Source: Senegalimassilia faecalis
GTDB lineage: Bacteria; Actinomycetota; Coriobacteriia; Coriobacteriales; Eggerthellaceae
DNA: 64,000 nucleotides
Assembly (NCBI RefSeq): GCF_004135645.1
Contig: NZ_SDPW01000001.1
Coordinates: 1,116,001-1,180,000 of the forward strand
Direction: 5' to 3'
Shown: piece after piece, positions 5,347-16,318 of the stretch
How positions within the stretch are numbered: the first letter of the stretch is position 1
Layout of the letters: the number at the start of each line of letters is the position of its first letter
Translations under genes and position numbers: made by a program
Notes under the pieces: model-generated
The model's input: only the letters and a program-made list of their open reading frames with translations
Told to the model about the DNA's origin: nothing
Database searches by the model: none

Positions 5347-7254
5347 CTAGGACGTGTACTGGTCCATGAAATCCAGGATCTCTTGGCGGGAGTGCAGGCC
5401 CGTTTTCGCGTAGATGCGCTTGATGTGGGCGTGTGCGGTGCTGGGGCTGATGTAAAGCTCCTCGGCTACGCGCTTCTGCGTCCAACCCAGCGCGTACAGC
5501 GCAAGTACCTCGATTTCGCGGTCGGAGAGCAGAAACTGCTTGCCCATCTGTTCGGCATTGTTTCGCATGGTGGCCTTGCGGATATCGGCGATGGAATCGC
5601 CCTCGTCAAGGCCCATCAGCCGCACCAGCCGCATCCCGCGTTTGGAACCGGGCTGCGCGTTGCGGCTCTTGTCCGCCGTTTCGCCCTGATCGACGCTTTC
5701 GATGGGCATTACCCCTGCGCATTGCAAGGGGTTCGGGGTACCGACCGCACCGGCGGCACCGGCGCCCATAGGCGCCGCATTTGCGCAAGCGGCGCACTCG
5801 CTGTATTCGCCAGCGTTGTTTTTCAAGATCGTGAGCGCTTCCACATTCGCTTGCGCCCGCGACAGCTGCTTCTCCAGGCGCTCCATGCGGCGTACGTGCA
5901 GATCGTGGCGCTCATCGGCTTCCATCTGGGAGACCTTGAGGAACTGGCCGAGCGCCACCTGCGTGGAGATGACCACGCAGGTGCCCATGATGGCGTTGAT
6001 GAGCAGGTCGTTCGTGGAAAGCGACTGCACGTTTATCAGCGTCACGCGCGCGATGGCGCGGCAGCCGAGCCACACGATCCAGCCGCCCAGCGCGTAGTAA
6101 TACGGGTCGCGCCAGCCGAAGCTCATAAATGCGATGATGATATACCAGGTGAACGCTACCAGCAACGCATTGAGCGTGGTGGTGAATACCGCGCCGATGT
6201 CCGGCATATCGGGGAAGGCCGCATACAGCACCAGTGCGGCGCACGCGAACAGCTCCAAGAGGATGAACATGCCCACGGTCATGACGCTCTTGCGCTTGTG
6301 CATCATCAAGGAAATGACGATGACGCAAATGGCTATGGTGAGCAGGCCATATGCAACCCGGGTGGCGGGCTGGAACGCGATGGGCGTACCGTCGGGGTAG
6401 CCGCGCAAGAAGCCGTCCACGATGGAGAGCACGCCGATGCTCGTTGCCGTCGCCGTGAGGAAGCGTTTGCTCGACAGCAACGTGGTGGCGAATCCGAAGA
6501 AGTCGTCGTTGGGCGTGAACGACTCGATATCGTTCGCCAGCTTGTTCTTGCGCGCGCTCAGCATGCAGGGGAACTGCAGGAGGGAGAGAGCGGCGGCAAC
6601 GTAGAAGCCGTAGGTGCCGATGAGCGAGCAAACGTAAATCTCCACCTCACTGATGGCAAGGGCGCTGAACACATACAGCACGGCGGTGGTGCTGCCGCAT
6701 CCGCGTGCGCGGCGCAGCCAATAGAAGATGGCGAACGATGCGAAGAACGTGACGGCCGCGCATAGCCAGAAATGCACGTTCGGCCAGAAGGCGCCTGCAA
6801 TGTGGGTCAGGGGAAGCAGTAGCACGCACAGCGCCTCCAATGCAACGCACGTGCGCATGATGCGGTTGGTGGTGCGCTTCTTCAGGCGGATCTTCCGCGT
6901 TCCGATGACAAGCAGAATAACGGCCATGAAGGAAAGCGCCACGAGCATGCTGCCATCGGTGAATATCCCCTCATCGGTGTGGGTATAGCTGCCGTAGCCG
7001 GCAACGATAAGCCCCGTGCGCGCGAAGCACAGGCCCAAGATGGAGGGGAGGAGCGGGACGTACAGGCTGAGCAGCTTCATGCCGGTTGGCATAGGGTGAG
7101 CGGCGTCGTCGGGCGCAAGGCGGCCTGTGCGCGTTCGAGCGCTCGGCTTCGCACCGACGGCGCTTGAAGCACTTGCCGGTTGTCCGGAGGCAGATGCCCC
7201 TCCCCGCCCTTGTGCGCGCTGAGCGATCGAATTGCCCGCTTCGTTGATCCTCAC
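5347..7254 (-). CDS. LuxR-family regulator with multi-span membrane N-terminal half
   Basis: 635 residues. After about 60 polar residues there are roughly 12 hydrophobic segments (to about residue 430), then a linker with heptad-like MERLEKQLSRAQANVEALT, then a C-terminal LuxR helix-turn-helix beginning LLSDREIEVLALYALGWTQK and ending with HAHIKRIYAKTGLHSRQEIL. This layout (transporter-like sensor fused to LuxR) is common and often expanded in Eggerthellaceae. The start is GTG 7254 with AGGAGG four bases before it. It is divergent from the NifU-like gene; a CCCTC/GAGGG palindrome lies between them. It probably senses a metabolite at the membrane and controls nearby redox genes, which is inference from position. 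Confidence 0.88.
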   Translation of the reverse strand: MRINEAGNSIAQRAQGRGGASASGQPASASSAVGAKPSARTRTGRLAPDDAAHPMPTGMKLLSLYVPLLPSILGLCFARTGLIVAGYGSYTHTDEGIFTDGSMLVALSFMAVILLVIGTRKIRLKKRTTNRIMRTCVALEALCVLLLPLTHIAGAFWPNVHFWLCAAVTFFASFAIFYWLRRARGCGSTTAVLYVFSALAISEVEIYVCSLIGTYGFYVAAALSLLQFPCMLSARKNKLANDIESFTPNDDFFGFATTLLSSKRFLTATATSIGVLSIVDGFLRGYPDGTPIAFQPATRVAYGLLTIAICVIVISLMMHKRKSVMTVGMFILLELFACAALVLYAAFPDMPDIGAVFTTTLNALLVAFTWYIIIAFMSFGWRDPYYYALGGWIVWLGCRAIARVTLINVQSLSTNDLLINAIMGTCVVISTQVALGQFLKVSQMEADERHDLHVRRMERLEKQLSRAQANVEALTILKNNAGEYSECAACANAAPMGAGAAGAVGTPNPLQCAGVMPIESVDQGETADKSRNAQPGSKRGMRLVRLMGLDEGDSIADIRKATMRNNAEQMGKQFLLSDREIEVLALYALGWTQKRVAEELYISPSTAHAHIKRIYAKTGLHSRQEILDFMDQYTS

Positions 7255-7334: not shown

Positions 7335-7350
7335 CCCTCAAAGAGGGTAT
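7335..7350 (+). promoter_or_regulatory. Palindromic operator candidate, copy 1 (CCCTCAAAGAGGGTAT)
   Basis: CCCTC-AAA-GAGGG followed by TAT, 82 bases before the NifU-like start and 81 from the divergent luxR start. Two close relatives lie between the AOR and ferredoxin genes (11741-11758 and 11836-11853). It may bind the LuxR regulator encoded alongside. Confidence 0.55.
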
Positions 7351-7431: not shown

Positions 7432-8091
7432 ATGGCGAACGAGCAGGAAATCACGTTCGATGAGCCGGATGAGGGCCGTGACATCTATCACGAGCCGGAC
7501 GACCGTGCGCTGATCCGCACGAAGGACGTGTATCAGACCGAGCTGGACAACGGCGTGGAAGGCTACTCGGAAACGATGCTCGCCATCGTGGCGAACTTCA
7601 AGAACGCCGGCAAGCCCGAGGGCTTCAACGTGCAGAGCATGGTGGGCAAGTCGAAGCGCGGCGAGGTGGCGTTGCGCCTGTTCGCAGTGGTCGACGACTC
7701 CGTTGCCGACCCGGTGTTCGTGAAGGTGGGCTTCAAGAGCCGCGGGTGCCTGGCCATGACCGGTTGCGCAAGCGCCATCTGCTCCATGATCGAGGGCAAG
7801 ACGTTCTCGCAGGCGTTGGAGCTGACGCCCAAGGACGTGGAGCTTGCGGTAGACGGCGTGCCGAAGGGCAAGGGCCATACCACCTTGTTCGCCATCGAGG
7901 CCGTGCGCGGCCTGGTGGGCGACTGGATGTACCGTTGCGGTATGTCGCTCGCGGAGATGGACGAGAAGCTGCCCTGCGACGAGATGTCGGTGGCGTGCCT
8001 GATGTGCGAGCATTGCAGCCTGCGCGACACGCGCGTCGAGATGAGGGTTAACGAGGCCATCGCGAAGCAGAAGGCCGGCGAGGCGAAATGA
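7432..8091 (+). CDS. Divergent NifU/IscU-like iron-sulfur scaffold protein
   Basis: 219 residues. Residues about 40-165 resemble IscU/NifU-N: a helix with YSETM, the segment before RGEV where IscU has its first cysteine, a GC motif at 105-106 and the GKTFSQALELT helix, then KGHTT where IscU has its third cysteine. Only the middle cysteine region is kept (C106, C112, C117). In exchange there is a Cys-rich C-terminus (C183, C189, C192, C195) absent from standard scaffolds. It may therefore build or carry a cluster in an altered way. The stop overlaps the next start by four bases (ATGA). The upstream palindrome links it to the AOR and molybdoenzyme region. Confidence 0.6.
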   Translation: MANEQEITFDEPDEGRDIYHEPDDRALIRTKDVYQTELDNGVEGYSETMLAIVANFKNAGKPEGFNVQSMVGKSKRGEVALRLFAVVDDSVADPVFVKVGFKSRGCLAMTGCASAICSMIEGKTFSQALELTPKDVELAVDGVPKGKGHTTLFAIEAVRGLVGDWMYRCGMSLAEMDEKLPCDEMSVACLMCEHCSLRDTRVEMRVNEAIAKQKAGEAK

Positions 8092-9314
8092 GCGAGCAGA
8101 TGAAGACGGCCGGAGAACCTCTGGGTCAGGATGTCGTTTCGGAAGACGTGGAATCGGCGGTGGGGGAGGTTGCCGCCAACCAGGGCGTCGCAGCCGCTGG
8201 GAATGCGGAAGCTGCCGCAGCCGGCGTCGATGAGACGCTTGAAGGGGAGGCGGCCGACGAGCCCACGGAGGAGGAGCTTGCGGCCGCACGCGAGCTGGCG
8301 GAGAACAACGCGCTTGCCGATGTGTTCGATGACGTGCGCAAACAGTCTGCCGACAGCCACCTGGTCACGCCCGAGCGTTGGCCAGAGATCGGTTTGGTGC
8401 CCGAGCATATGACGGCCGAGGACTTCGAGATGTTCGTGTACGAATGGCTCGAGGATTACCAGGCGGAACACAAGGACGAGATCGAGGCGGAGCGCGCCGC
8501 CGAGCGCGCGAAAGCCGCCGCGGTGCGTTCTGCTACTCGTGCGGTGGGCGTGCCCCCGAAGATCCCGAACCGCCGCTTGGCGCAGATCGAGGCCGACAAC
8601 GAGGCGAAGGCGGCCGAGGCCGCCGATAAGGCGCCGAAAGCCGTTGGGGATTCCGCTGAAGCCGAGTCCGCCGCGGGCGTCAATGCTTCCGTGCAGGTTG
8701 ATAACGCTGCGGAATCCGCCGAAAGCGCCGCCGTCGCCGCAACGCCTGCGGTTTCCGAGCCTGCCCCGGGTTCCCCTGATAGCGCAGCCGAAGATGAGCA
8801 GCCTGCCGAGGACGACAGGAGCCCCTTCGCCGGCTTGCGCATCCCCGAGGGCTACCGCCTTGAGCAGATCGAGGGCGAATGGGTGCTCGTGGAGGACGAG
8901 AACGCCGCGCCTGTGCGCAAGGAGATCAAGTGCAACCGCATCAAGGTGCTCATGGGTATGCACAGCTACTATCTCTACGACGAGACGCTCATGACTGCCA
9001 GCTACGCTCGCTGGGCATTCCTGGCAGCCGAGGATAACCCGGTGGTCACGTTCGTCGAGTGTGTGCGCGAGGATTCGCGCGTGTATCCTCGCCCCTATGC
9101 CGCCGAGTGCCTGAAGAACCCGCCCTTCCGCATGACCGACGAGCAGATCGAGGAAACGTGGCAGGCTGTGCGCGATTCCGGCAACTATCCGGACATTGAG
9201 CGCACCGAGGCATCCAACGGCGACGTGTACTACTATTCCACGCAGTACCTCGAGTCCGGCTATGCGGCATCGCTGGCCGAATACGATGCGGTGGAGCGCC
9301 CTGCCGACGTGTAA
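8088..9314 (+). CDS. Acidic Ala/Glu-rich hypothetical protein, translationally coupled to the NifU-like gene
   Basis: 408 residues, not recognised. The first 65 residues are acidic and low in complexity. Residues about 66-180 look helical and charged (VTPERWPEIGLVPEHMTAED, then DYQAEHKDEIEAERAAERAK). Residues 180-245 are an Ala/Glu/Ser/Pro linker. The last 160 residues look folded, with a Tyr-rich segment (MHSYYLYDETL), ECVREDSRVYPRPYAAECLK, and YYYSTQYLESGYAASLAEYD. No signal peptide or membrane span is seen. ATGA overlap with the upstream scaffold-like gene implies matched expression, so a role as partner or client in that pathway is plausible. A strong terminator follows. Confidence 0.75.
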   Translation: MSEQMKTAGEPLGQDVVSEDVESAVGEVAANQGVAAAGNAEAAAAGVDETLEGEAADEPTEEELAAARELAENNALADVFDDVRKQSADSHLVTPERWPEIGLVPEHMTAEDFEMFVYEWLEDYQAEHKDEIEAERAAERAKAAAVRSATRAVGVPPKIPNRRLAQIEADNEAKAAEAADKAPKAVGDSAEAESAAGVNASVQVDNAAESAESAAVAATPAVSEPAPGSPDSAAEDEQPAEDDRSPFAGLRIPEGYRLEQIEGEWVLVEDENAAPVRKEIKCNRIKVLMGMHSYYLYDETLMTASYARWAFLAAEDNPVVTFVECVREDSRVYPRPYAAECLKNPPFRMTDEQIEETWQAVRDSGNYPDIERTEASNGDVYYYSTQYLESGYAASLAEYDAVERPADV

Positions 9315-9356
9315 TGCCCGATGAGGGTCTAGCGCGCAGCGGCAGTGCGCAATGCA

Positions 9357-9394
9357 ATGCGCCCCGAGCAGTCTCGCTCGGGGCGCATTTTTTT
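9357..9394 (+). terminator. Terminator of the NifU-like operon
   Basis: ATGCGCCCCGAGC / GCTCGGGGCGCAT, a 13-bp perfect stem with loop AGTCTC, then seven T. Confidence 0.92.
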
Positions 9395-9492: not shown

Positions 9493-11631
9493 TTACGGCA
9501 GCAGGTTCAGGCTCTGCAGCTCGGCCTTGACGTCGTCCATGCCGTAGTAGTCCAGGCAGTCGGCCGTCGGGCAGCCCTTCTCGGAATCCCAACCAAACTT
9601 CTCGTACAGCATGGTCAGGCCCTTCTGGAAGTCTTCCTTCTCCATCTTGTCGGTGCCTTGCGTGAACGGCTGCTTGTCGGGGTCCTTCGTGAACGGCCAC
9701 TCGGTGATCACGTCGTGGATGGTGCGGCAGTCGTTGCAGCCGATCTTGCCGTCCTTGTCGGTCATGCCACGCACGGTGTTGGCGCGTTGCAGCGTCATGA
9801 TCTTGGCGGCGCGCTTGTACAGCTCGTCGGTGGTGACATCCTCGCCGGTGACGGCCTTGTAGAACTTGGCCTCCAGGTCGAGGTCGCCGCGGTAGTTGCG
9901 GTCCTTCGACGGGCTCTGGGCCATCGGCCACACCCAGTTGCACAGCGTCAGCGAGTCATGCAGCACGTCGGTGACGATCGACCACCAGCAGAAGTTTGCC
10001 TTGTGCTCGTTCATCGGCGTGTAGTTCTTCTCGGGGTCAAGCGCGTCCTCGCCGCCCCACAGCTCGGCAGCGATCTGCTGCTTCAGCTCGTGCGGAAGGC
10101 CGCACTGCAGCATGTTCTGATGCGAGTGAATCATGGGGTCGCGGTTGAACACCATGTTCAGCAGACCGCCGACCTGGCCATACGACTCAATGGCGTGGTG
10201 CACCGGCCAGCCGCGGTAGTTGATCAGGCAGCTTGCGGTGGTGTCGAACCACTCCATGTCGTCCCAACGCGGGCACCACACGAGCGGGCCGTGGCCCAGA
10301 TAGGACATCTCGTTGTCGTTCTGCGCGATGTGCTTGAGCAGCTCGACCATAATGGTGGGGTCGTTGTTCTCGAACTTCTGCCAGTCGAACATGTTGTACT
10401 CGTCTTCGGGCAGCACCTTCTTGAAGATGCCCTTGGACACGCAATGCGCGATGTCGCGGTAAATCTGAGCGTAGTTGCACCACATGCCCAAATCGTCCAT
10501 CGTGCCGCCAACAACCTGGTCCCAGATCAGGCCGTCCTCGGTGCCGAACTTCACCGACGTGTGATTGCCCAGGATCTTCACCATGTAAATGGAGAACGGG
10601 AAGTTCGGCACGCAGGTGTTGCCGGTGATCTCGAAGCCGCCGTTCTTCTTGGCGTTCGGCACGCGCATGTCGGAGTAGCAGTGAATCGGGCAGCTGTGGC
10701 AGCCGTTCATCTTGATGGTGTACTTCTCGGCCTCGGGACCCTCGTCCTTGGTGGTCTTCATGCAGCGGTAGCCGACGGTGTTGATCTCGCCCGGCTTCGG
10801 CTCGCCGGTCTCGATCGGCTCGCCCTCGGCGTCGGCCCAGTACAGGCCCTTGCGAGCGGTCCAACGGGTGCCCTTGTCGTAGTACTCTGCCCATTCCTGC
10901 TGGGTGGACGGCACGACATGGTTGTTGTTGGAGCCGACGATCTCGCGCAGCATGTAGTCGGACAGATCGGCCAGGGCCTTCGGGTCCTTGACGTTCACGC
11001 TGCCGTTGCCCTCGACGACCAGTGCCTTGAGCTTCTTGGAGCCCATGATGCAGCCCAGGCCGGCGCCGGCGGAGTGGTTACGGGAGTTCATCATGACGGC
11101 GTAGGGCAGCAGGTTCTCACCGGCAGGGCCGATGGTGGCCACGCAGGCGCGGTTGCCCTCGAGACGGTTCAGGGCCTCGGTGGTGGAACGGGTGCCCATG
11201 CCCCAGACGAAGGAGGCGTCCTTGATCTCGACCTGATCGTCCTTGATGTGCAGGTACACCGGCTTGTCGGACTTGCCCTCGACGATGATGGCATCGTAAC
11301 CGGCCAGCTTGATGCGGGCGCCGATCATGCCGCCGCAGTGTGCGTCGACGACCAGATGGTCCTTGCTGAACGTGGACAGGAAGCTAATGGTGGTACGGCC
11401 AGCCAGCGGCACGCCGGAAGCGGTCAGCGGGCCGACGGCGTAAACGATCTTGGACTCCTCGGAAAGAGGATCGGTGCCAGCCGGTACCTCGTCGTACATG
11501 ATCTTGTTGGCAAGGCCCATGCCGCCGATGTATTCCTTATAAGGTGCGGTGGACTCGGTGGTGATGCTGCCCGTCGTCAGATTGACGCGCAGGATCTTGC
11601 CGGCCCAGCCGTATGACTTCTCGTCAGCCAT
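9493..11631 (-). CDS. Aldehyde ferredoxin oxidoreductase family protein (tungsto/molybdopterin enzyme)
   Basis: 712 residues from ATG 11631 (MADEKSYGWAGKILRVNL), chosen because GGAG lies seven bases before it; an in-frame ATG ten codons upstream lacks a site. It has the AOR N-terminal pattern (GGMGLANKIMYDE, VGPLTASGVPLAGRTT, DAHCGGMIGARIKLAGYD) and the cluster motif CHSCPIHC (C-x2-C-x3-C near residues 309-316) with a distant fourth Cys in LTLCNWVW (about 562). The family uses a bis-pterin tungsten or molybdenum centre plus one [4Fe-4S] cluster, in most members to oxidise aldehydes. No signal peptide, so cytoplasmic. Divergent from a Tat-type polyferredoxin that is a likely electron partner, a pairing like E. 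coli ydhV with ydhX/ydhY. The true substrate is unknown. Confidence 0.9.
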   Translation of the reverse strand: MADEKSYGWAGKILRVNLTTGSITTESTAPYKEYIGGMGLANKIMYDEVPAGTDPLSEESKIVYAVGPLTASGVPLAGRTTISFLSTFSKDHLVVDAHCGGMIGARIKLAGYDAIIVEGKSDKPVYLHIKDDQVEIKDASFVWGMGTRSTTEALNRLEGNRACVATIGPAGENLLPYAVMMNSRNHSAGAGLGCIMGSKKLKALVVEGNGSVNVKDPKALADLSDYMLREIVGSNNNHVVPSTQQEWAEYYDKGTRWTARKGLYWADAEGEPIETGEPKPGEINTVGYRCMKTTKDEGPEAEKYTIKMNGCHSCPIHCYSDMRVPNAKKNGGFEITGNTCVPNFPFSIYMVKILGNHTSVKFGTEDGLIWDQVVGGTMDDLGMWCNYAQIYRDIAHCVSKGIFKKVLPEDEYNMFDWQKFENNDPTIMVELLKHIAQNDNEMSYLGHGPLVWCPRWDDMEWFDTTASCLINYRGWPVHHAIESYGQVGGLLNMVFNRDPMIHSHQNMLQCGLPHELKQQIAAELWGGEDALDPEKNYTPMNEHKANFCWWSIVTDVLHDSLTLCNWVWPMAQSPSKDRNYRGDLDLEAKFYKAVTGEDVTTDELYKRAAKIMTLQRANTVRGMTDKDGKIGCNDCRTIHDVITEWPFTKDPDKQPFTQGTDKMEKEDFQKGLTMLYEKFGWDSEKGCPTADCLDYYGMDDVKAELQSLNLLP

Positions 11632-11740
11632 GTTGCATCTCCAAATCTCTTCTCGATACATGCGTTGCGTGACATGTCGGGCGATTCGGGTGCAGACGAC
11701 AATTCGTCACTGGGCAGTGTTGCGCACCGTATGAACCGGG

Positions 11741-11758
11741 TATCCCCTCTTTGAGGGT
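11741..11758 (-). promoter_or_regulatory. Palindromic operator candidate, copy 2 (facing AOR)
   Basis: On the minus strand this reads ACCCTCAAAGAGGGGATA, 110 bases upstream of the AOR start. The core matches copy 1 near luxR and copy 3 at 11836. Confidence 0.6.
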
Positions 11759-11835: not shown

Positions 11836-11853
11836 ACCCCCAAAGAGGGGATA
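11836..11853 (+). promoter_or_regulatory. Palindromic operator candidate, copy 3 (facing ferredoxin operon)
   Basis: Plus strand ACCCCCAAAGAGGGGATA, 163 bases before the ferredoxin start. It is a mirror of copy 2, so each divergent gene has one site in the same relative orientation. Confidence 0.6.
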
Positions 11854-12016: not shown

Positions 12017-12706
12017 ATGTCAGATACGAATACAAGCGGCAGCGCCCCGGTCAAGAAGAACATCACCCGCCGCGACGTGCTGGCCATGGCCGGCTGCGGC
12101 GTTGCGGGTTTGGTCGTCGGCGGCGCGCTGGCCAGCTGGGGCGTCACCCAGGAGTCCATCGCATCCGGCCGCATCGAGCTGCGCACCACGCCCACCAAGA
12201 TGATCGTCACCGATCGCGCCCGTTGCTCGGGTTGCCAGCGCTGCGAGATGATGTGCACGCTGAAGAACGACGGCCGCGTGTGCCAGCACATCGCCCGCGT
12301 GCGTGTGTGGGATAACTATTACTGGGGCAAGTCCGCCGACACCGGCGACGGCTCCTTCGGCGACGGCAAGGGTGCTTGCGAGTTCACCGTCGAGCACTGC
12401 AAGCAGTGCGCCGACGCGCAGTGCGTGAAGTACTGCCCGGTCCACGCCATCTACGCCGACGAGAAGACCGGCGCCCGCACGGTCGACACCAAGAAGTGCA
12501 TCGGCTGCGGCATGTGCAGCCAGGCTTGCCCCTGGAACATGCCCCGCGTCGACACCGAGACCGGCGTGTCCACGAAGTGCATCTCCTGCGGCCGCTGCGC
12601 CGAGCAGTGCCCCAACGGCGCCATCCAGTTCATCGATTGGCAGGATATCGCGCAGAAGATCATCGACGAGGGCATCGTTCGCACGACGACCGCGGTCACC
12701 GCGTAA
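12017..12706 (+). CDS. Tat-signal polyferredoxin (4Fe-4S), AOR/molybdoenzyme electron carrier
   Basis: 229 residues. The N-terminus has a twin-arginine signal (TRRDVLAMAG, R18-R19, then a hydrophobic stretch to about residue 42). Four cysteine groups follow: CSGCQRCEMMC, CKQCADAQCVKYCP, CIGCGMCSQACP and CISCGRCAEQCP, enough for four [4Fe-4S] clusters. It resembles YdhX/NrfC-type electron carriers. It is divergent from the AOR gene across a 385-base regulatory region with two matching palindromes, and is followed by the TorD/PsrABC-like genes in the same direction. It could pass electrons between AOR, the exported molybdoenzyme and the membrane subunit. A small hairpin separates it from the next gene. 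Confidence 0.88.
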   Translation: MSDTNTSGSAPVKKNITRRDVLAMAGCGVAGLVVGGALASWGVTQESIASGRIELRTTPTKMIVTDRARCSGCQRCEMMCTLKNDGRVCQHIARVRVWDNYYWGKSADTGDGSFGDGKGACEFTVEHCKQCADAQCVKYCPVHAIYADEKTGARTVDTKKCIGCGMCSQACPWNMPRVDTETGVSTKCISCGRCAEQCPNGAIQFIDWQDIAQKIIDEGIVRTTTAVTA

Positions 12707-12815: not shown

Positions 12816-13508
12816 ATGATGGACGACGCAGCGGTGTTCTCGGTGCTTTCGAAGTGCTTCGGTTCCGTTGAAAAGGACGAATGGAAGCAGATGACGCACA
12901 GCGCAGCCTGGGCCGAGTTCATGGACGGTGTTCGCCGTCTTTTGCAAGACGACACGCGTTTCGGCAAGCAGGCAAGCCCCATCGAGCGCATGCAGGTGCG
13001 CGCGCCCATGCAGGAATTCCTTTCCGACAACGAGGTCGACGAGCTGTTCTGCCCTCCGCTTTTCGAGGAGAAGCAGGGGTTTGCGGCGCGTCACTTCACC
13101 GGAGGGCTTCCCCAGTCGGCGATTCCCGTGGAGTCGCTGTACACGGATTGGAGCACCCCCGGCAACGTGAATCCGCTTATCGGCAAGCAGAAGGGCCTGT
13201 ATCTGGGCGCTTCGGCGCGTTATATGCGGGCATTGATCGAGCAGCTGGGCCTGGAGGTGCCGGCGGAATATGCCGACTGCCCCGATCACCTGGCGTTGGA
13301 GCTCGACCTGGTGGCGGTGCTGCTGCGAAGCGGCATGGACGCCGAGGCCCGTCAGTTTGTGGCCGAGCGCTTCGATTGGCTGACCGATTACCGGTTGAAG
13401 CTGCTGAAGCTTGACGATGACGCGCGGTTCTACATCAGCCTGGTCGACGTGATCTTGGGCATCTGCGCGGAACAGCGCGCCGAGTCCGAATCCGGCCAGA
13501 CGGCTTGA
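12816..13508 (+). CDS. TorD/DmsD-family chaperone for the molybdoenzyme
   Basis: 230 residues, all-helical in appearance, with the family motif PVESLYTDW at about residues 105-113 and the later EYADCPDHLALELDLVAVLL segment, equivalent to the E-P-x-D-H region of TorD/DmsD proteins. These cytoplasmic chaperones bind the Tat signal of their partner and hold it until the molybdopterin cofactor is inserted. The next gene encodes a Tat-signal molybdoenzyme, the expected partner. An AGGAG site lies about ten bases before two adjacent ATG codons (12816 and 12819). It is the first gene of the catalytic part of the operon. Confidence 0.82.
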   Translation: MMDDAAVFSVLSKCFGSVEKDEWKQMTHSAAWAEFMDGVRRLLQDDTRFGKQASPIERMQVRAPMQEFLSDNEVDELFCPPLFEEKQGFAARHFTGGLPQSAIPVESLYTDWSTPGNVNPLIGKQKGLYLGASARYMRALIEQLGLEVPAEYADCPDHLALELDLVAVLLRSGMDAEARQFVAERFDWLTDYRLKLLKLDDDARFYISLVDVILGICAEQRAESESGQTA

Positions 13509-13567
13509 TGGCGGTTCGCATCATGGATGAAACGATGACGCAGGATGCATATAGAGAGGAATCAGCA

Positions 13568-15772
13568 ATGTCAGAAAACGCTATTACCAGGCGAAGCTTT
13601 CTGGCCGGCAGCGCCGGGGTCGCAGCAGTTGCGGCCGGTGCGGGCTTCATGAGCTTTGGCGCCTGGGAGCAGGCTGACGCGAGCGGGACGAAGGATGTGG
13701 AATCCCACACCGCTTACTCGCTGTGCAACTCCTGCTCTTCCAAGTGCGGGTTCAAGGGGTACGTGGTCGACGGCAAGCTCACCAAGATGATCGGCGAGCC
13801 CAGCCATCCCCACTGCGAGGGCACGCTGTGCGGCCGCGCATACGGCTACGCGTCCATCGCCTACTCCGAGGACCGCTTGACCGACCCCTTGAAGAAGAAC
13901 GCCAAGGGCGAGTTCGAGAAGATCAGCTGGGACCAGGCCTACTCCGAGATCGCGGAGAAGGTCAAGTCCATCATCGGCTCCGACGGCCCCGAGGCCCTGG
14001 CCATGATCCAGGACCCGCGCCCGTCCGGCTCCTACTACACCAAGCGCTTCATGCAGGCGCTCGGCAGCGCCAACGTGTACACGCACGGCGCCGCCTGCAA
14101 CATGTCGAAGAACGCGGGCTTCACGCAGGTCATCGGCGCGAGCGACTACCTGGCCGACGTCGAGAACGCCAAGGCCTGCATGTTCATCGGCCGCAGCTAC
14201 GCCGATGCCATCCGCCCGAGCCAGCTGCACGCCCTGGAGAAGGCGCACGAGAGGGGCGCGTACATCGTGCTGGTCGACCCGCGCCTGAACAACTCCATCG
14301 CCTTCGCCGACGAGTGGCTGCCCATCAACCCGGGCACCGACCTGGCGCTGGTGCTTGCCATGAGCCACGTGCTCGTCAACCGCGGCCTGTACGACAAGAA
14401 GTTCGTGTCCGAGCAGGCAGTCGGCTTCGACGAGTGGGTCGCCACCCTGGGCCAGTACACGCCCGAGTGGGCAGCTAAGATCACCGGCCTGAAGGCCATC
14501 GACATCGAGCGCATCGCGGTGAAGTTCGCCGAGTGCGCCCCTGCCGCCTGCATCGAGCCGAGCTGGCGCGGCGCCTATGGCTGCAGCTACGCCAATTCCG
14601 GCGAGACGGCACGTGCCGTCGCTTGCTTCAACGGCCTTTTGGGCTGCTGGAACCAGAAGGGCGGCGCCCTGTTCAGCGCGTCGGTCAAGGCCGGCGACGT
14701 GGACAAGGCCAAGTTCCCGTCCGTGCCCAAGGTCGAGGCGAAGATCGCGGGTCAGTCCGAGTACCCGCTGTCCCTGTCCGGCATGGGCGTCAACGTCTAC
14801 GCCGCGCAGCTTGCCAAGGAAGGCAAGATGAAGGGCATGTTCTTCTACAACTCCAACATGGTGGCGGGCTATTCCAACCCGGCCTACCTGCAGGAGTGCC
14901 TGGCCAACCTGGAGCTGTCGGTGTGCATCGACGTCCAGATGACCGAGACGTGCCACGCGTGCGACTACGTCCTGCCCGACACCAGCTACCTCGAGCGCCT
15001 CGAGCTCCCCGAGTTCTACGGCGGCAAGATCCCGGCCGTGGCTATCCGCGACCAGGTCATCGAGAAGGTGCATCCCAATACCCGCCCGGTCGACCAGATC
15101 TTCTCCGAGCTGGCAGAGGCGTGCGGCGTGGGCCAGTACTTCGACTTCACCGTCGAGGAGCTTGCCGATGCGCAGCTCAAGACCGTGGGCCTGTCCCTCG
15201 ACGGCCTGCGCGCCTGCGGCGTGAGCACCTTCCCCGAGAAGGCGTTCAAGTACGGCTCGTACCCGAAGTGGAAGACGCCCTCCGGCAAGTTCCAGTTCGC
15301 CTCCGAGGCGTGCGAGAAGGCGGGCCTGCCCCGCACCCCGCAGTGGCTCGAGCCTGCGGTGGCCGTGCCCGAGGATGGCAAGTCCTTCCGTCTGATCGGC
15401 GGCAAGCAGGCCATCCACACCCATACGCAGACCGCCAACAGCGAGCCGCTCATGGCCATCACGAAGCAGTACGGCCTGGAGCGCGTGTGGATGAACGCGA
15501 GCCGCGCTAAGGAGCTCGGCATCTCCGACGGCGACACCGTCGAGGTCTCCAACGAGCAGCACACGGGCAAGGTCCAGGTGAAGGTCACCCAGCGCATCAA
15601 CCCCGACGCGCTGTACATGCCCAGCCACTACGGCTGCTCCTCGAAGGAGGAGAAGACGGCGTATGGCGTCGGCCTGAGCCAGATGGACTACGTGCCCTTC
15701 CGCATCGAGCCCGGTTACGGCGGAATCTGCTCCCAGGAGGCCGTCGTCACCGTCAAGAAAGTAGGTGCATAG
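13568..15772 (+). CDS. Molybdopterin oxidoreductase, catalytic subunit (PsrA/PhsA-like), Tat-exported
   Basis: 734 residues from ATG 13568 (MSENAITRRSFLAGSAG), chosen for AGAGGA nine bases upstream; an in-frame ATG at 13505 would overlap the TorD-like gene. A clear Tat signal (R8-R9) ends near residue 40. A [4Fe-4S] motif follows (CNSCSSKCGF and a fourth Cys in GTLCGRAYG). The Mo-bis-MGD fold shows GAACNMSKNAG, whose Cys is the probable metal ligand as in PsrA, PhsA and NapA. The C-terminal domain has HTQTANSEPL and MPSHYGCSSK. With the B and C subunits behind it this is a three-subunit respiratory reductase or oxidase on the outer face of the membrane. Sulfur compounds are possible, but the substrate cannot be read from sequence. 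Confidence 0.9.
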   Translation: MSENAITRRSFLAGSAGVAAVAAGAGFMSFGAWEQADASGTKDVESHTAYSLCNSCSSKCGFKGYVVDGKLTKMIGEPSHPHCEGTLCGRAYGYASIAYSEDRLTDPLKKNAKGEFEKISWDQAYSEIAEKVKSIIGSDGPEALAMIQDPRPSGSYYTKRFMQALGSANVYTHGAACNMSKNAGFTQVIGASDYLADVENAKACMFIGRSYADAIRPSQLHALEKAHERGAYIVLVDPRLNNSIAFADEWLPINPGTDLALVLAMSHVLVNRGLYDKKFVSEQAVGFDEWVATLGQYTPEWAAKITGLKAIDIERIAVKFAECAPAACIEPSWRGAYGCSYANSGETARAVACFNGLLGCWNQKGGALFSASVKAGDVDKAKFPSVPKVEAKIAGQSEYPLSLSGMGVNVYAAQLAKEGKMKGMFFYNSNMVAGYSNPAYLQECLANLELSVCIDVQMTETCHACDYVLPDTSYLERLELPEFYGGKIPAVAIRDQVIEKVHPNTRPVDQIFSELAEACGVGQYFDFTVEELADAQLKTVGLSLDGLRACGVSTFPEKAFKYGSYPKWKTPSGKFQFASEACEKAGLPRTPQWLEPAVAVPEDGKSFRLIGGKQAIHTHTQTANSEPLMAITKQYGLERVWMNASRAKELGISDGDTVEVSNEQHTGKVQVKVTQRINPDALYMPSHYGCSSKEEKTAYGVGLSQMDYVPFRIEPGYGGICSQEAVVTVKKVGA

Positions 15773-15775
15773 CAT

Positions 15776-16318
15776 ATGGCACGCTATGGAATGCTTATCA
15801 ACACCAAGAAGTGCATCGGCTGCTACGCCTGCCGCACCGCGTGCCAGCGCCAGAACGGCTTGGACCCGACCGATTCGTTCATCCGCTTCGAGGAGCGCGA
15901 GGTCGGCGAGTACCCGAGCGTGAGCGTCGAGCACGTGCCTCTGCAGTGCATGCACTGCGAGGACGCGCCGTGCGCCAGCGTCTGCCCGACCGGCGCCGCC
16001 CACATCGGCCCCGACGGCATCGTCGAGGTCGACCAGGGCCGCTGCATCGGCTGCCTTTACTGCATGGCCGCCTGCCCCTACCAGGTGCGCAACCGCAACG
16101 AGAAGACCGGCGCCGTCGACAAGTGCCGCTTCTGCAACGTGTCCAACTACACGAGCGGCACCGAGATGTGCAGCTGCGTGACGGCCTGCCCGACCGGCGC
16201 GCGCATCTTCGGCGACCTGGACGACCCGGACTGCGAGCTGGTGAAGGAGATCGCCGCCACGCACGCGGCCCCCATCGCCGGCGACCTTACCAAGTCCAAA
16301 GTCTATTACGTGAGGTGA
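15776..16318 (+). CDS. Four-cluster ferredoxin subunit (PsrB/DmsB/NrfC-like)
   Basis: 180 residues, three bases after the catalytic gene. Four cysteine groups: CIGCYACRTACQ at the N-terminus, CMHCEDAPCASVCP, CIGCLYCMAACP, and the split group CRFCNVSNY with CSCVTACP. This is the standard electron-transfer subunit of complex iron-sulfur molybdoenzymes, carrying electrons between the A subunit and the membrane quinone site. It has no signal of its own, as usual for subunits co-exported with A. Confidence 0.95.
   Translation: MARYGMLINTKKCIGCYACRTACQRQNGLDPTDSFIRFEEREVGEYPSVSVEHVPLQCMHCEDAPCASVCPTGAAHIGPDGIVEVDQGRCIGCLYCMAACPYQVRNRNEKTGAVDKCRFCNVSNYTSGTEMCSCVTACPTGARIFGDLDDPDCELVKEIAATHAAPIAGDLTKSKVYYVR

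Follow-up and report, generated by a model that had tools for sequence, protein, structure and literature searches.

A NifU-fold protein coupled to a YdhW homologue accompanies class V WOR in Coriobacteriales and is a candidate for its maturation

Results

Organisation of the locus

The window, i.e. the whole stretch of 64,000 nucleotides of the genome of the gut bacterium Senegalimassilia faecalis (Eggerthellaceae) that was analysed, harbours two overlapping genes encoding a NifU-fold protein and a YdhW homologue, and around them the following features were identified:

5347–7254, minus strand: LuxR-type regulator, divergent from the pair, with a LuxR-type HTH at aa ~553–630
7335–7347, plus strand: operator CCCTCAAAGAGGG, 5' of the NifU/YdhW pair
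7432–8091, plus strand: NifU-fold protein, 219 aa (Pfam NifU_N, AlphaFold2 and Foldseek to IscU, conservation in 65 relatives), with the N-terminal motif RTxDxYQ (aa 29–35) and the C-terminal motif C-x6-C-x2-C-x2-C-SLR (aa 182–198)
8088–8091, plus strand: ATGA start-stop overlap joining the NifU-like and ydhW-like ORFs
8088–9314, plus strand: YdhW homologue, 408 aa (NCBIfam NF007411, hhalign, AlphaFold2)
9356–9389, plus strand: strong terminator-like hairpin with a T run, 3' end of the transcription unit of the pair
9493–11661, minus strand: YdhV-type AOR homologue (class V WOR, WorL; NF007354), convergent to the pair
11745–11757, minus strand: operator CCCTCAAAGAGGG, AOR/YdhY intergenic region
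11837–11849, plus strand: operator CCCCCAAAGAGGG, AOR/YdhY intergenic region
12017–12706, plus strand: YdhY-type polyferredoxin (WorS; NF007382), first gene of an operon divergent from the AOR
12816–13508, plus strand: TorD-like chaperone (TorD family match E 1.5e-11, below cut-off)
13505–15772, plus strand: DMSO-reductase-family molybdoenzyme, PhsA-like, member of the YdhY operon
15776–16318, plus strand: NrfC/YdhX-like 4Fe-4S ferredoxin

The start-stop coupling of the 219-aa and 408-aa ORFs had been read from the sequence alone and was seen again here. At the corresponding locus of S. anaerobia JC110 the NifU-like protein is identical to that of the window.

The AOR shows 51% identity to E. 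coli YdhV and scores 1055 bits against NF007354 (YdhV, cut-off 868), and the ferredoxin, 44–46% identical to YdhY, reaches 214.6 bits against NF007382 (YdhY, cut-off 213). Since both exceed the cut-offs they are equivalogs of YdhV and YdhY, and the locus therefore belongs to class V WOR as defined in PMC13328260 (clade 41; YdhV, CsWOR41). It differs from the known class V WOR in that it also contains a DMSO-reductase-family enzyme and a NifU-like gene. The N-terminus of the ferredoxin contains RR when inspected by eye (NITRRDVLAMAGCG).

When the AOR of the window was compared with 39 coriobacterial relatives, two lineage-specific cysteines were conserved, C300 in 97% and C520 in 93%, in contrast to the E. 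coli, Proteus and Cetobacterium enzymes where these positions are T and S. C520 is situated near conserved histidines in the sequence.

The TorD-like chaperone probably serves the neighbouring DMSO-reductase-family enzyme. Within the TorD/enzyme region (12816–15772) the latter is 56–98% identical in the loci of some relatives and 34–42% in others, as if it had been swapped between relatives while the remaining system stayed.

The NifU-fold protein

A NifU-like fold had been proposed for the 219-aa protein, and this was borne out by both sequence and structure. Pfam NifU_N (PF01592) matches aa 45–165 with E 2.4e-11 (44.3 bits, cut-off 22), and the AlphaFold2 model, built from a shallow alignment and with a mean pLDDT of 80 (aa 41–219 in blocks of 75–97), was matched by Foldseek in the PDB to IscU of A. 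fulgidus (4eb5_C, E 4.1e-9, TMt 0.83). The protein scores far below the cut-offs of the scaffold equivalogs, however, with 51.8 bits against 187.9, 44.1 against 273.3 and 27.5 against 192.4 for the IscU/NifU equivalogs (TIGR01999, TIGR03419, TIGR02000) and 13.3 against 92.5 for the SufU equivalog TIGR01994. No homology was found between it and any of the E. coli Ydh proteins.

Alignment with E. coli IscU and with IscU structures placed R76 and T150 at the first and third scaffold cysteines, C106 at the second and E78 at D39. The loss of the first and third cysteines and the presence of three cysteines around the middle position (C106 together with the additional C112 and C117) are thus as first read from the sequence. 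Among 65 distinct relatives the first position is R, H, K or S and never Cys, while the third is mostly T and Cys in a single case, so that the three-cysteine scaffold site is absent from the family. The central position is retained as Cys in 59 (D in four, S in two), and the position of D39 is E in 45.

The C-terminal cysteines form the motif C182-x6-C189-x2-C192-x2-C195, the first gap being one residue longer than the C-x5-C-x2-C-x2-C reported earlier. In this motif C182, C189, C195, S196 and R198 are invariant (65/65), while C192 is Cys in 41 relatives and replaced in 24, and a four-cysteine cluster site at the C-terminus is therefore not universal. The constant cysteines of the family are relocated to the C-terminus. 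What the protein shares with the IscU/NifU N-terminal scaffold is consequently the fold and, usually, the second scaffold cysteine, whereas the RTxDxYQ and C-x6-C-x2-C-x2-C-SLR motifs are extra.

The YdhW-like partner

The 408-residue protein had been described as acidic and without known domains. Its length and acidic stretch hold, but it is neither domainless nor of an unknown family, as NCBIfam YdhW (NF007411) matches aa 276–403 with E 1e-26 (94.1 bits, below the 203-bit cut-off) and hhalign against E. coli YdhW gives a probability of 98.7 over 133 columns. Judged by sequence, its C-terminal domain is homologous to E. coli YdhW. The protein consists of a conserved helical block (aa ~70–127), an acidic disordered stretch and the C-terminal YdhW domain (aa ~276–405); in the AlphaFold2 model, again from a shallow alignment, aa 186–241 are disordered while the helical block (aa 61–149) and the C-terminal domain are confident. 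The N-terminal block shares one short motif at a matching place with the N-terminus of YdhW, which at 1.1–3.4 bits is not significant.

In E. coli ydhW is located between ydhV and ydhX in the ydhYVWXUT operon, and the homologue in the window is likewise encoded with YdhV and YdhY. The two proteins thus have the C-terminal domain and the genomic partners in common but differ in length (215 aa in E. coli against 408 aa with the long acidic disordered stretch) and in context, the coriobacterial homologue being encoded next to, or in one ORF with, a NifU-fold protein while the E. coli ydh operon contains no such protein. In E. coli YdhW itself one unit (PPY/F ... Y.DI ... YYYS ... YA) appears to be present twice, and part of the 408-aa protein matches this unit in two registers.

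No solved structure related to YdhW by sequence was found. By fold, the model of the C-terminal domain gave weak winged-helix matches only, the best with Z 7.4, and no Foldseek match below E 0.001; since Z values up to 7.4 lie within the chance range for common folds, no winged-helix assignment was made.

Gene order, fusion and co-occurrence with YdhV

Gene order was compared for the 65 distinct NifU-like sequences. The ydhW-like gene comes first in 34, the order of the window is found in 17, in 13 the two are fused into a single ORF and in one they are apart, with the AOR, ferredoxin and molybdoenzyme genes between them. On the tree the fused state changes at least four times. The adjacency hence outlasts both inversion and fusion, which argues for a functional pair. 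In one genome a class V WOR locus is accompanied by another, divergent one, where the NifU-like gene lies to one side of the AOR, ferredoxin and molybdoenzyme genes and the YdhW-like gene to the other.

Co-occurrence was studied in 153 genomes of two Coriobacteriales families, 95 of Eggerthellaceae and 58 of a second family. The NifU variant was scored at 180 bits or more, canonical NifU proteins following at no more than 104 bits. It is present in 82 of the 84 YdhV-positive genomes, all 69 without YdhV lack it, and a wide occurrence of homologues without AOR, which would speak against a dedicated role, was thus not seen among the searched genomes. The proposed co-occurrence of the NifU-like protein with AOR in other Eggerthellaceae turned out to be nearly one-to-one, 55/57 YdhV-positive against 0/38 YdhV-negative genomes (Fisher 1.6e-24), and the second family gave 27/27 against 0/31 (Fisher 3.8e-17), although counts and p-values alike are phylogenetically dependent and come from one bacterial order. 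Both YdhV genomes without the variant are explained by contig ends, one contig stopping ~0.5 kb past the AOR and the other beginning inside the ydhW-like gene. Several genera are polymorphic, with the NifU variant and YdhV gained or lost together, and in one genus the pair and YdhV are located on different contigs in all four genomes while the co-occurrence still holds.

A contig pattern scan revealed no close NifU variant beyond Coriobacteriia, none was present outside Coriobacteriales among 296 sampled Actinomycetota genomes, and on plasmids canonical NifU only was found.

Operator and regulation

A shared operator had been noted from the sequence, and the genome search agrees with this. In its 2.75 Mb the genome contains just three perfect CCCYCAAAGAGGG sites, against 0.2–0.3 expected from base composition. 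One is located 5' of the pair and two in the AOR/ferredoxin intergenic region, at the promoters of the three transcription units (pair, AOR, ferredoxin operon). When at most two mismatches are allowed, sites are found at equivalent places in most Eggerthellaceae relatives, and they are mostly absent in the second Coriobacteriales family and in the deepest branches. The LuxR-type regulator (5347–7254) is a candidate for binding the operator; a homologue is present at 18 of 29 compared loci, and in E. lenta membrane LuxR proteins activate adjacent molybdoenzyme genes (PMC9734109).

SUF, FdhD and other lineages

Elsewhere in the Senegalimassilia genome SufC, SufB, a SufD-like protein, SufS and SufU are encoded, so general cluster assembly need not rely on the NifU-like protein. 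FdhD was found neither in this genome nor in the 58 genomes of the second family. As a fixed partner of YdhV it was rejected, its association being weak in Eggerthellaceae (43/57 against 17/38, p 0.004) in addition to these absences. If a sulfur step is needed, an FdhD-independent route must therefore exist where FdhD is absent, and one may speculate that the NifU-like protein supplies it.

The YdhV loci of E. coli, Proteus and Cetobacterium contain YdhW, and no NifU-like gene was found there; the NifU part is accordingly not universally required. On a plasmid of Cetobacterium somerae the AOR CsWOR41 is followed by a YdhW homologue (annotated as hypothetical, 33% identity to E. coli YdhW) situated directly 5' of fdhD, and then by tatA, tatC and moeA, i.e. 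the surroundings of ydhW are a maturation neighbourhood.

Discussion

Proposed function of the pair

Taken as a whole, the pair probably serves class V WOR (YdhV/YdhY) as an accessory module of its own, most likely as a complex dedicated to its maturation. YdhW would be the more widespread component and the one specific to the client, accompanying YdhV in Proteobacteria, Fusobacteriota and Coriobacteriales and probably binding apo-YdhV, and in Coriobacteriales an IscU/NifU-type protein would have been recruited to it. As the latter has lost the three-cysteine building site and has a C-terminal cysteine site, its role would be that of a carrier or donor that supplies YdhV with part of its cofactor (a preformed Fe-S cluster, sulfur or the metal site) and does not assemble clusters de novo, and general cluster building would be left to the SUF system. 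A dedicated pair for cluster delivery or for the maturation of tungsten or molybdenum enzymes had been suggested by the sequence-only reading; the co-occurrence, the operator and the fusions speak for the dedication, and cluster delivery would be one possible role, whereas the partner is not new. Being a YdhW homologue, half of the pair exists beyond the lineage, in E. coli, Proteus and Cetobacterium.

Published work on related enzymes fits the role of a private maturation factor. For E. coli YdhV no Moco chaperone is known, and the purified enzyme did not contain a functional [4Fe-4S] cluster (PMC9103625). When CsWOR41 was produced in the absence of its third gene, none of the 46 aldehydes screened gave activity (PMC13328260). 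IscS co-purified with CsWOR41, which the authors regarded as incidental (PMC13328260), and it may well be so. With FdhD- and TorD-type maturation factors the pair would have a common logic, a private factor for one molybdo- or tungsto-enzyme, although the protein families differ.

The main rival is that the two proteins are structural or electron-transfer subunits of mature class V WOR, the C-terminal cysteines holding a permanent relay Fe-S cluster and YdhW docking. A stoichiometric electron-transfer subunit would give a similar genomic pattern of nearly strict YdhV co-occurrence and shared operator, the cysteine motif is invariant, and published work lists YdhW among the subunits of the E. 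coli enzyme (PMC13328260). We nevertheless consider this reading unlikely, as the pair forms a separate transcription unit closed by a terminator-like hairpin and in one genus lies on another contig than YdhV, both unusual for core subunits, and as 24 of 65 relatives have another residue in place of C192 and the body of the NifU-like protein has the fold of an assembly protein.

Far less probable is a regulatory module in which a winged-helix YdhW and an Fe-S-sensing NifU-fold protein act through the palindromic operator. The site directly 5' of the pair and the winged-helix matches would suit it, but these matches lie in the chance range and Foldseek gave none below E 0.001, a divergent LuxR regulator with its own HTH is encoded and recurs in relatives, and YdhW accompanies YdhV in distant phyla without the CCCYCAAAGAGGG operator system. 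Least probable of all is that the NifU-like protein belongs to the general Fe-S machinery, as a degenerate scaffold or a sulfur-transfer protein, and is located here by chance, for in spite of the NifU_N fold and the C106 retained in 59/65, the variant tracks YdhV and is absent from 69/69 YdhV-less genomes, a full SUF system including SufU is encoded elsewhere, and the scores do not come near the equivalog cut-offs of IscU, NifU or SufU.

Returning to the proposed maturation complex, the more specific proposal that a NifU-fold protein, its scaffold site gone and a C-terminal cysteine site gained, coupled or fused to YdhW, is a dedicated assembly factor for an AOR-family enzyme appears to us evenly balanced between right and wrong. 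We know of no dedicated assembly factor of the NifU fold for AOR-family enzymes, and among the papers searched none mentions NifU together with aldehyde ferredoxin oxidoreductase. The linked pair makes the question of YdhV maturation testable. Should maturation depend on YdhW and the NifU-like protein, this may account for the lack of a functional cluster in purified YdhV and for the inactivity of CsWOR41, and expressing all genes of the module together would be a direct way to the active enzyme and its substrate. The NifU fold would then have been repurposed in these bacteria, from a scaffold to a client-specific carrier.
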